The notes under the pieces are model-generated. The model was not told the origin of the DNA. It searched no databases and saw only the letters and a program-made list of their open reading frames with translations. From Pseudomonas sp. VD-NE ins (GTDB taxonomy: Bacteria > Pseudomonadota > Gammaproteobacteria > Pseudomonadales > Pseudomonadaceae): a DNA stretch of 64,000 bases. The DNA is taken from positions 3,987,001-4,051,000 of the forward strand of contig NZ_CP134772.1 in the NCBI RefSeq assembly GCF_031882575.1. The letters run 5' to 3'. Each line of letters opens with the position of its first letter. Within the stretch, counting starts at the first letter, position 1. Shown in pieces: positions 22,596-60,123 of this stretch. Position numbers and translations under genes: made by a program.

Positions 22596-22613
22596 ACTGT
22601 CAGATATGACAGT
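22596..22613. promoter_or_regulatory. Palindrome containing a LexA-type core
   Basis: ACTGTCA and TGACAGT form perfect 7-base arms around GATA, and the same bases read CTGT-N8-ACAG. It lies 61 bases before the 67-aa open frame on the minus strand. The eight fixed LexA bases alone are expected about once by chance in 64 kb, so the LexA reading is weak; an operator for some other dimeric repressor is equally possible. Confidence 0.35.
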
Positions 22614-57013: not shown

Positions 57014-57190
57014 CCCCCTCACCCCAACCCTCTCCCCCAGGGGGGCGAGGGGGAAAGGGGGCCGATCTTTGTGGTATTCAAAATGTGAGTTCGACTTGAT
57101 TGTTCAGGTCGATGGATCAAGTCCAAACACCTCGGTCAGTCCCCTCTCCCTATGGGCGGTCCGACGTTTCGGGAGGGTTAGGGTGAGGGG
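57014..57190. repeat. Family F palindromic element, copy 4 (arm interrupted)
   Basis: Ends CCCCCTCACCCCAACCCTC and GGGTTAGGGTGAGGGG. The right arm hairpin is enlarged by about 20 bases (GGCGGTCCGACGTTTCGG). Its right end provides the last codons and stop of the DUF4130 gene at 57178. Confidence 0.8.
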
Positions 57191-58011
57191 CTTTTCAGTG
57201 CGATGCGTTTACCTGCACGATCAGCAATCCCACTCGCCTGCCCATTCTGCTGCTTACCCATCCGCGCCTGCGTAATCAACCCGGGAATCAACTCCCCCTC
57301 CGGCAGATTCTTCCAGAACCGCGCCGGCAAATGCCCCTGCATAACCTTCTCGTTCAACCGCGCAGGATTAAAGATGTGGCTGTAATAGGTCAGCCAAAGA
57401 TCACCATGAGGATCGTCGACGTTCTGCGCCAACTGCTGCCATTCCACCGGGCATTGCCGCTGATGAATCAATTGCTCGCCATCGTAATAGACCCCGTCAC
57501 GCGGCGTGGCGATCAACCAGCGGTGGCGGCCCATCCGCCCAATAAAATGCTCACTGGCACTGTGCAAAATGTCATGGGCCGGTTCGTGCCAAGCCACATA
57601 CTCCGGACCGGCGCTGGATGAAGGCCGTTCGATGAAACGCACAAACGCATGCAGATGATGGGCCTCCCGATGCACTTGTTTGATCCGTCGCTGTAACTCG
57701 CTGCCGAGTTTGTCCCCGGCCATCATCGCGGTACGGTCGCCGTGGCTGACGCGCCACAGCACTTCATACAGCAAACTCCAGCGTTGATCACCGCGATAAC
57801 GCGAGGCCTGTTCCAGGGTGTCGAGCAACGCTCGCGGAATGCGCGCCTGGAACGGCCCCTGCCCTTCAGGCACCGGCTCATCACTGGCAAACAGATCAGC
57901 CACGCCTTGCGTAGCCCAACTCACCAGACTCGGATCGACTTCATGGCTCAGCAGCCAACGCGCCTGCTGGCGCCACGTGTCGAACAAATCGTCGCAATCA
58001 AGATTGATCAT
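57178..58011 (-). CDS. DUF4130 (TIGR03915-type) putative DNA-metabolism protein
   Basis: 277-residue protein of the DUF4130 group, known as a companion of the radical SAM protein next to it. Recognisable parts are LLYEVLWRVSHGDR (about 82-95), the middle AHHLHAFVRFIE and the later RHRWLIATPRDGVYYDG. Proteins of this group are sometimes fused to uracil-DNA-glycosylase-like domains; this one is not. The ATG at 58011 overlaps the radical SAM stop (58008-58010), so they are coupled. The last few residues (KSPSP) and stop come from a family F element. The reaction is unknown. Confidence 0.85.
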   Translation of the reverse strand: MINLDCDDLFDTWRQQARWLLSHEVDPSLVSWATQGVADLFASDEPVPEGQGPFQARIPRALLDTLEQASRYRGDQRWSLLYEVLWRVSHGDRTAMMAGDKLGSELQRRIKQVHREAHHLHAFVRFIERPSSSAGPEYVAWHEPAHDILHSASEHFIGRMGRHRWLIATPRDGVYYDGEQLIHQRQCPVEWQQLAQNVDDPHGDLWLTYYSHIFNPARLNEKVMQGHLPARFWKNLPEGELIPGLITQARMGKQQNGQASGIADRAGKRIALKSPSP

Positions 58012-59228
58012 CCCCACAGCCCCATCTGCTGCGGCATCGGCCGGTCACGCAATTGCTGATAGAGCAAATGGCTGGTGACCTCGGCCTGCTGCGGATGATA
58101 GTCGCTGGTGATGATGAACGGCTTGGCCTTGGCCAGCACACAGCGCATGCGCGCGACGTCTTCGTAACGAATGCGCCGCTGTCGGCGCAGCTCGACCAGA
58201 CGTTCGGTGGTGCGCAAGCCGATGCCGGGAATACGCGCAATCAAGGAGGCTTCGGCGCGGTTCAGATCGAGCGGGAACACCTCGCGATTCTGCAGCGCCC
58301 AGGCCAGTTTCGGGTCGATGTCCAGCGCCAGATTACCCGGGCCCTTGAGCAATTCATCGGCGCTGTAACCGTAGCTGCGCAGGAGAAAATCGGCCTGATA
58401 CAAGCGGTGTTCGCGCATCAGCGGCGGCGCGGCCAGCGGCACGCTTTTCGGGCTGTCGGGGATCGGGCTGAAGGCCGAATAGTAGACCCGGCGCAGACGG
58501 AAATTGCCGTACAAGGCCTGGGCGCTGTGGAGGATGGTGCTGTCGTCGGTGTCGTCGGCGCCGACAATCAATTGCGTGCTCTGCCCGGCGGGGGCGAACT
58601 TCGCCGAGCGTGGTTCGTTCAACACGGTCTGCACGCCGGTGTAGATGGTGTTCATTGCCTGTTTGATCGAAGTGATGTCCTTCTCCGGCGCCAGCACTTG
58701 CAGGCTGGCATCGGTGGGCAGTTCGATGTTGACGCTCAGGCGATCAGCGTAGCGCCCCGCCTCTTCGATCAATGCCGGATCGGCTTCGGGAATGGTCTTG
58801 AGATGGATGTACCCGCGAAACTCATGCTCTTCGCGCAGCAGCTTCGCCACCCGCACCAGTTGCTCCATGGTGTAGTCCGCCGAGCGAATGATGCCAGAGC
58901 TGAGGAACAATCCGCTGACGCAGTTACGCCGGTAGAAATCCATGGTCAGCGCCACGACTTCCTCGGGGGTGAAACGAGCGCGCGGAACATCGCTGGAGCG
59001 GCGGTTGACGCAATACTGGCAATCGTAAAGGCAGAAATTGGTCAGCAGAATCTTCAACAACGACACGCAACGCCCGTCCGGCGTGTAGCTGTGGCAGATG
59101 CCCATGCCATCGGTCGAGCCCAGCCCGCTCTTGCCTTCGGAGCTGCGCTTGGGCGCGCCGCTGCTCGCGCAGGAGGCGTCGTACTTGGCGGCGTCGGCGA
59201 GGATGCTCAGCTTGTCGATGATTTGCAT
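58008..59228 (-). CDS. Radical SAM protein, putative DNA modification/repair (TIGR03916 type)
   Basis: 406 residues. The radical SAM cluster motif is CLYDCQYC (Cys66, Cys70, Cys73), in an alpha/beta barrel of about 300 residues. Near residue 330-355 lies a helix-hairpin-helix (IARIPGIGLRTTERLVELRR), the common non-specific DNA-binding element. The pairing of these two features with the DUF4130 neighbour defines a family that is predicted to act on DNA; no reaction is established. Start at 59228 lies nine bases from a LexA-type palindrome, with no obvious ribosome site. SOS control is inferred. Confidence 0.88.
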   Translation of the reverse strand: MQIIDKLSILADAAKYDASCASSGAPKRSSEGKSGLGSTDGMGICHSYTPDGRCVSLLKILLTNFCLYDCQYCVNRRSSDVPRARFTPEEVVALTMDFYRRNCVSGLFLSSGIIRSADYTMEQLVRVAKLLREEHEFRGYIHLKTIPEADPALIEEAGRYADRLSVNIELPTDASLQVLAPEKDITSIKQAMNTIYTGVQTVLNEPRSAKFAPAGQSTQLIVGADDTDDSTILHSAQALYGNFRLRRVYYSAFSPIPDSPKSVPLAAPPLMREHRLYQADFLLRSYGYSADELLKGPGNLALDIDPKLAWALQNREVFPLDLNRAEASLIARIPGIGLRTTERLVELRRQRRIRYEDVARMRCVLAKAKPFIITSDYHPQQAEVTSHLLYQQLRDRPMPQQMGLWG

Positions 59229-59236
59229 GGCGCGGG

Positions 59237-59266
59237 CTCTATACTGTTTGCATATACAGTATAGAG
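59237..59266 (-). promoter_or_regulatory. LexA-type (SOS) operator before the radical SAM operon
   Basis: CTCTATACTGT (59237-59247) and ACAGTATAGAG (59256-59266) are perfect 11-base arms around TTGCATAT. The inner bases are CTGT-N8-ACAG, the LexA consensus of gammaproteobacteria. It begins eight bases before the ATG at 59228, so the transcript would have a very short leader. Confidence 0.75.
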
Positions 59267-59323
59267 TCGGCAGCGGTGATACAAGGTGGCAGATGCGCCC
59301 CTCGTCGGTCAGAAGCTGAAAAT

Positions 59324-59421
59324 CAAATGATCGCAGCCTTCGGCAGCTCCTACAGGGATTCGGTACGGTCGGAATTTATCGGGTGTACACGTTTTTCCGC
59401 AGGCTGCGATCTGTTGATCTG
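59324..59421. repeat. Family C repeat overlapping an ArsR-type gene
   Basis: GATCGCAGCCTTCGGCAGC at the left and GCAGGCTGCGATCTGTTGATC at the right. The left part supplies the stop codon (TAG within TGTAGGAGCTG on the minus strand) and the right part codes for the last residues of the gene at 59350. Confidence 0.75.
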
Positions 59422-60123
59422 CCCGTCTACCGGCCACTCAACGCCAAACCGCGCACCGATCTCCTTGCGCCCCGCCGCCGTTAACGCCAGCGCGCGACTG
59501 TCCAGATCTTGCGTCACCCACTTGCGCTTCAACGCCGTTTGCAACAACGCCGCGCCCAGCGAGCCCCCGAGATGCGGCCGGCGCATGCTCCAGTCCAGGC
59601 ACGGGCAGGCAAACTTGCGGCGCAGGGTCGTCAAGTCCTGCACTTCAATGCCCAGTCCAAGAAACAACGCCTCGCCCGTCTCACTCAAGCGATACGCCTG
59701 CTCGTCGGTTGCCACCAGCCAACCAGCCTCAAGCAAACGGTCATGCAGCAACACCGCCAGCGTCCCGGCCATGTGGTCGTAGCAAGTGCGCGCAAATTGC
59801 AGGCGATCCGGGGTGTGCGCCTTGAACGTCGGCGCGGCGTTCTGGCCAATCACCATCAACGCTTCCAGCGCCTGCGCCACGCGCTGATCGGCGAGGCTGT
59901 AATAGCGATGGCGGCCCTGCACATGCAGGCGCACCAGAGCCAGGTCCTTGAGTTTCGCCAAGTGCACACTGGCGGTCGAGGCGCTGACTTCGGCGATCGT
60001 CGCCAGCTCCGTGCTGGTGCGGGCGTGGCCGTCCATCAGCGAGCAGAGGATTTTCGTTCGCGCCGGCTCGGCGATGGCGGCGGCCACTTGGGAAACGCCG
60101 ATGTCTTGATGCTCTGCGTGCAT
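59350..60123 (-). CDS. ArsR-type winged-helix regulator
   Basis: 257 residues. The N-terminal HTH of the ArsR type (about 10-85) includes ARTKILCSLMDGHARTSTELA and ASTASVHLAKLKDLALVRLHVQGRHRYY. The C-terminal 150 residues are longer than usual and contain CPCLDW. The final 24 residues are encoded within a family C repeat, so this gene was probably extended by the repeat. Divergent from a cytochrome P450 gene 79 bp away, which it probably regulates. Confidence 0.82.
   Translation of the reverse strand: MHAEHQDIGVSQVAAAIAEPARTKILCSLMDGHARTSTELATIAEVSASTASVHLAKLKDLALVRLHVQGRHRYYSLADQRVAQALEALMVIGQNAAPTFKAHTPDRLQFARTCYDHMAGTLAVLLHDRLLEAGWLVATDEQAYRLSETGEALFLGLGIEVQDLTTLRRKFACPCLDWSMRRPHLGGSLGAALLQTALKRKWVTQDLDSRALALTAAGRKEIGARFGVEWPVDGQINRSQPAEKRVHPINSDRTESL

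Follow-up and report, generated by a model that had tools for sequence, protein, structure and literature searches.

The window analyzed here is a stretch of 64,000 nucleotides from the genome of Pseudomonas sp. VD-NE ins, and all positions below refer to it. It contains a pair of overlapping genes, encoding a radical SAM protein and a DUF4130 protein, together with a palindrome immediately upstream of the first gene. The features of the locus are as follows.

57178..58017, minus strand: TIGR03915/DUF4130 partner, 279 aa when read from GTG 58017 (202.5 bits, curated cut-off 112.25)
58008..59228, minus strand: radical SAM protein of family TIGR03916 (rSAM_link_UDG), 406 aa (538.4 bits, curated cut-off 343.5)
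58179..58271, minus strand: possible helix-hairpin-helix, residues 320-350 of the radical SAM protein (PF12836, E 8e-4, below cut-off)
59010..59033, minus strand: CX3CX2C motif (residues 66-73), the [4Fe-4S]/SAM site, with C66, C70 and C73 present in 41 of 41 aligned proteins
59237..59266, no strand: full palindrome of 30 bp with 11-bp arms, CTCTATACTGT-N8-ACAGTATAGAG, 8 nt before the ATG
59242..59261, no strand: LexA1-type operator TACTGT-N8-ACAGTA (20 bp), its core CTG-N10-CAG being found within 40 nt of the start in 148 of 149 Pseudomonas loci
59256..59261, minus strand: predicted -10 element TACTGT, within the operator
59279..59284, minus strand: predicted -35 element TTGTAT, its TTG standing at the same 17-bp distance from TACTGT in 114/145 distinct promoters
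59350..60123, minus strand: ArsR-type regulator gene, upstream of the radical SAM gene

Both genes scored well above the curated cut-offs of TIGR03916 and TIGR03915/DUF4130, respectively. Membership in the radical SAM superfamily is further indicated by PF04055 (35.1 bits versus 29.5) in combination with the CX3CX2C motif, and the DUF4130 partner also matched PF13566 (124.5 bits versus 27). TIGR03916 was the sole NCBIfam match of the radical SAM protein, and no NCBIfam model of spore photoproduct lyase (SplB) matched it at E <= 1e-3; its fold, when compared, spoke neither for nor against SplB. The preliminary description of this locus had named a radical SAM protein with a helix-hairpin-helix and its DUF4130 companion; the two family assignments stand, whereas the helix-hairpin-helix reached only 19.9 bits against the Pfam cut-off of 27, accompanied by weak matches to RuvA/ComEA profiles. 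Three further cysteines of the radical SAM protein (C20, C45 and C54) are invariant, and the region in which they lie (residues 20-55) is a low-confidence part of the structure model. A role of the pair in DNA repair or modification is suggested by its family names and by its regulation.

Conservation of the pair was examined in three sets of loci. Among 199 Pseudomonas genomes, TIGR03916 was detected in 149, with one match each and all above cut-off, and was absent from the other 50; the 149 Pseudomonas loci comprise 30 and 118 loci plus the window. The second set holds 36 further loci from order and phylum searches, exclusive of L172-L175 (the own locus and matches below the cut-off) and of four genomes with matches above it (G528, G492, G469 and G546). 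The third contains 80 named loci, the best 80 of at least 587 confirmed relatives, whose lineage labels were taken from their records. A DUF4130 match was present in the same locus in 149/149, 34/36 and 79/80 cases, respectively, and none was found in L190 and L193 of the second set or in L257 of the third, whose locus is short. In the window the start of the DUF4130 gene overlaps the 3' end of the radical SAM gene, and an alternative start at ATG 58011 would give a protein of 277 aa whose start codon shares ATGA with the stop codon of the radical SAM gene. Such an overlap, with the start chosen by script, was seen in 147 of the 148 Pseudomonas loci whose partner was readable; partners were read by a motif, which missed that of L162 among the 149.

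The palindrome described previously, with perfect 11-base arms around CTGT-N8-ACAG and 8 nt from the ATG, was located at 59237-59266; the core motif occupies 59244-59259 and the radical SAM gene starts at 59228 on the minus strand. The accompanying statement that its pairing is far beyond chance overstates the case for the palindrome considered alone. Perfect 11-bp arms separated by 8 nt are found at a single place in the window, and 20 Markov shuffles yielded no such arrangement. However, with gaps of 3-20 nt there are 23 hits, many of them overlapping, versus a shuffle mean of 0.6. The window is thus not poor in perfect inverted repeats, which makes the palindrome by itself weaker evidence than it first appeared. 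CTGT-N8-ACAG is not rare either, being found twice in the window (0.62 expected), a count reached in 14 of 100 shuffles. Throughout the 6.7-Mb genome, 85 sites of CTGT-N8-ACAG were counted versus 24 for the reversed control, and TACTGT-N9-CAGTA showed no enrichment as such (4 versus 3 sites), two of its four sites being full TACTGT-N8-ACAGTA palindromes, including that at 59242-59261. Palindromes of the form CTGTCA-N4-TGACAG, present at 22597-22612 of the window and at several places in the genome, also match CTGT-N8-ACAG and are unlike LexA boxes. Taken by itself, the palindrome upstream of the pair is suggestive, and the weight of the argument rests on its conservation.

Within the genus, CTG-N10-CAG was found no more than 40 nt from the start codon in 148 of the 149 Pseudomonas loci, as compared with 23 of 781 control windows (103 nt, from the named Pseudomonas/Stutzerimonas loci). 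In 82 of the 149 loci the box is an exact CTGT-N8-ACAG whose end lies 12-20 nt upstream of the ATG, and in 66 the first A of ACAG is replaced by C or T, which likely makes for a weaker half-site. L159 carries two changes in the box, and the right half-site is damaged in both L159 and L215, another Pseudomonas locus. Lack of conservation of the palindrome had been set beforehand as a refuting observation; the core CTG-N10-CAG proved to be kept, whereas relatives differ in the outer 5 bp of each arm. An additional exact CTGT-N8-ACAG match lies 108 nt away in L137.

Among the best 80 of at least 587 relatives, CTG-N10-CAG lies within 100 nt of the start in 19/20 Pseudomonas/Stutzerimonas, 16/17 betaproteobacterial and 1/1 Salinicola loci, and the alphaproteobacterial LexA motif GAAC-N7-GAAC (either strand) lies within the same distance in 30/33 alphaproteobacterial loci, these lineage motifs occurring in 0-3% of control windows. 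The exchange is clean within these 80 loci: GAAC-N7-GAAC was found in 0/17 betaproteobacteria and 0/20 Pseudomonas/Stutzerimonas, and CTGT-N8-[ACT]CAG in 0/33 alphaproteobacteria. Both LexA motifs are absent from all seven Xanthomonadaceae/Rhodanobacteraceae loci and both Verrucomicrobia loci of this set. One of the two motifs was also present within 200 nt in 33 of the 36 further loci, and neither was found within that distance in L164, L165 and L191. The box thus changes as the LexA motif of the lineage changes, a pattern that is difficult to account for without LexA. Upstream of L164 and L165, which are divergent radical SAM relatives, there is a GCGACA-N5-TGTCG palindrome.

Two LexA proteins are encoded in the host genome. 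The lexA1 promoter contains two boxes of the same kind as that of the pair, CTGTATATAATCCCAG and CTGTATAAAAAGACAG, one of which has the CCAG variant, while the LexA2 start, GGAGTACAAATGTACTCC, carries the unlike box AGTAC-AAAT-GTACT, so the operator of the pair is of the LexA1 type and its promoter contains an operator of the kind used by a LexA of the host. The earlier proposal of a LexA-type operator is therefore borne out by genus-wide conservation and by the shift of the box with the LexA motif of each lineage, and LexA-type control of the pair, as predicted from these comparisons, is well supported. The same proposal had included a nearly leaderless transcript, which does not agree with the promoter: the conserved TTG 17 bp before TACTGT places the probable -10 element inside the operator. 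The predicted transcription start then also falls in the operator, approximately 7 nt past TACTGT, and would give a leader of about 20-25 nt.

It is very likely that the locus represents an SOS operon with a LexA1 operator, in which a radical SAM protein predicted to act on DNA bases is combined with a DUF4130 partner and, in many relatives, a probably optional UdgX-type glycosylase. In the undamaged cell, LexA1 would occupy the operator at 59242-59261, cover the sigma-70 -10 element and block transcription. DNA damage would activate RecA and trigger self-cleavage of LexA, after which both overlapping genes would be expressed. The radical SAM protein may then use a 5'-deoxyadenosyl radical on a damaged or wrongly incorporated DNA base, perhaps aided by a second metal site formed by the three further invariant cysteines, and DUF4130, its near-constant partner, could bind or process the target DNA. 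In this view, the UdgX-type glycosylase that many relatives carry fused to DUF4130 would be an optional add-on.

SOS control of such a pair is not new in principle, given earlier predictions for Clostridium and Bacteroidetes. COG4277, which appears in one of them, is presumably the same family as TIGR03916. In Clostridium acetobutylicum, SOS control of CAC3343-CAC3344 was predicted in 2013, according to passages of PMC3828012; these genes belong to another phylum and are compared here by their description. Passages of PMC8565304 place a COG1573-COG4277 operon within the SOS networks of Bacteroidetes, likewise as two genes, and cite, for Verrucomicrobia and Alphaproteobacteria, an SOS-controlled system based on a UDG. 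The COG1573-COG4277 operon contains a UDG (COG1573), whereas the Pseudomonas pair lacks one and has a CTGT-N8-ACAG box. DUF4130 has been linked to radical SAM proteins and UDGs (PMC3765255), the passages on DUF4130 in that paper being free of operator or Pseudomonas analysis, and a gene of the same name is described in part of PMC13130816 as up on desiccation in an Acinetobacter. Our literature search found no earlier report of SOS control of the pair in Pseudomonas.

The place of the UDG bears directly on what the operon does. As the preliminary description had stated, no UDG is fused here: neither the radical SAM protein nor the DUF4130 protein has a UDG domain match in NCBIfam or Pfam, and the UdgX domain of relatives is absent from this DUF4130 protein. 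It is conceivable, though unlikely, that the operon is a uracil-excision system at heart, in which a separate UDG acts in trans where none is fused. Consistent with such a system, partners longer than 400 aa are common elsewhere (15/17 beta- and 29/32 alphaproteobacterial proteins among the matches listed), a Pfam UDG match is present in all 16 of the long members of alignment A4, and the UDG part in relatives is of the UdgX type by sequence, its best solved match being UdgX (6ail, 226.7 bits, versus 141.7 for TM0511, 1vk2). Passages of PMC8565304 also describe COG1573-COG4277 as putatively a base excision repair system that uses a UDG. However, TIGR03914, the only UDG family scanned across the 6.7-Mb genome, has no match there, and only 6 of the 148 readable Pseudomonas partners exceed 400 aa. 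Three of these six (L023, L029 and L037) lack an exact GEQPG, the motif given for UdgX in the abstract of PMC10359453, and their UDG part looks eroded. Among three long alphaproteobacterial or class-level proteins scanned, one (L183) gave a partial TIGR03914 match only (34 of 190 bits).

The distribution of long partners on a tree of 103 radical SAM proteins also speaks against a UDG at the center of the system. The long state changes 11 times on this tree, which was built by a quick method and rooted at the midpoint, with fusion labeled by length (partner >400 aa), and at least seven of these changes are required by well-supported branches. From 245 rows, 23 with an absent or cut partner were dropped, and removal of redundancy at 93% identity reduced the remaining 222 to 103; among the named Pseudomonas/Stutzerimonas loci, L204-L222 and L238 are outside the tree. 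In one instance, the short L021 is sister to the long L023, which lacks GEQPG. Such repeated gain or loss, at least seven times, makes it probable that the UDG lies outside the core. Exact CTGT-N8-ACAG boxes accompany all six of the long Pseudomonas forms, and SOS control, as predicted from the boxes, stays while the UDG comes and goes. These data place a pair of unassigned chemistry in the Pseudomonas SOS response with strong comparative support and allow the UDG to be treated as optional, which narrows the search for the substrate to lesions that arise at the time of the SOS response and are handled without a UDG of the pair's own.

A regular DNA modification or a function in phage defence, instead of damage repair, is an even less probable purpose of the pair. 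The NCBI name reads modification/repair, and relatives occur in 10 phage-collection records (two 240-kb records titled Acinetobacter phage MD-2021a and eight titled Bacteriophage sp.), but neither protein has a PADLOC match, and LexA-type control across several lineages fits a damage response. Finally, it is highly improbable that another dimeric regulator, such as the ArsR-type protein encoded upstream on the same strand, binds the palindrome and that its likeness to a LexA box is coincidental: the dyad does continue outside the LexA core, with outer positions 4, 5, 6 and 9 pairing more than in any of 2000 shuffles (134 distinct sequences from 148 rows, L159 omitted), a count that is confounded by sequence kinship and for which slid controls reach 0.48, but an ArsR gene was found in at least 18 of the 149 loci including the window (a lower bound, since many loci extend only about 600 nt upstream) versus the box in 148, and alphaproteobacteria carry their own LexA motif in place of the box.

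Beyond the predicted SOS operon itself, what is new here is the absence and repeated gain or loss of the UDG, the three invariant extra cysteines and a distinct palindrome in Xanthomonadaceae. The latter, GTCTCA-N5-TGAGAC or a one-base variant, was found at the pair in five of the seven Xanthomonadaceae/Rhodanobacteraceae loci among the best 80 of at least 587 relatives (L240, L241, L260, L269 and L280) and in L191; the Luteibacter and Rhodanobacter pair loci lack it, one-base variants included. Sites of this type were also detected at other loci (L302, L306, L311 and L312), and genome scans allowing up to one mismatch yielded 4-13 sites per genome versus 0-2 for the reversed control. They precede the gene for an HRQ1-type DEAD/DEAH helicase in Xanthomonas and Stenotrophomonas, uvrA in Stenotrophomonas sepilia (one genome), and mraZ in both genomes whose neighbour was scanned, the site beside mraZ in Xanthomonas also facing a TANGO2-like gene on the opposite strand. 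The occurrence of one palindrome at the pair, uvrA and the helicase gene points to a possible non-LexA damage regulator. A site with one mismatch is located 127 nt ahead of a lexA2-imuA pair in Rhodanobacter, and hence a link to a LexA may exist; the boxes directly before lexA genes in these bacteria differ, being of TTAG-N-TACTAA types in L316-L319 and GTGTACAAATGTACAC in L322 and L323.

A further-reaching reading, which we put forward only tentatively, would make the pair an enzyme for DNA lesions that is self-sufficient, needs no glycosylase and contains a second metal cluster (C20, C45 and C54). Its new repair chemistry would have come separately under the control of the damage regulator present in each lineage: LexA1 in gamma- and betaproteobacteria, the direct-repeat LexA in alphaproteobacteria, and the unnamed GTCTCA-N5-TGAGAC regulator in Xanthomonadaceae.

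The other full TACTGT-N8-ACAGTA palindrome of the host genome (L328, 1501-1520) is located upstream of a 105-aa ORF that has no match in Pfam and is a candidate for a further SOS gene.
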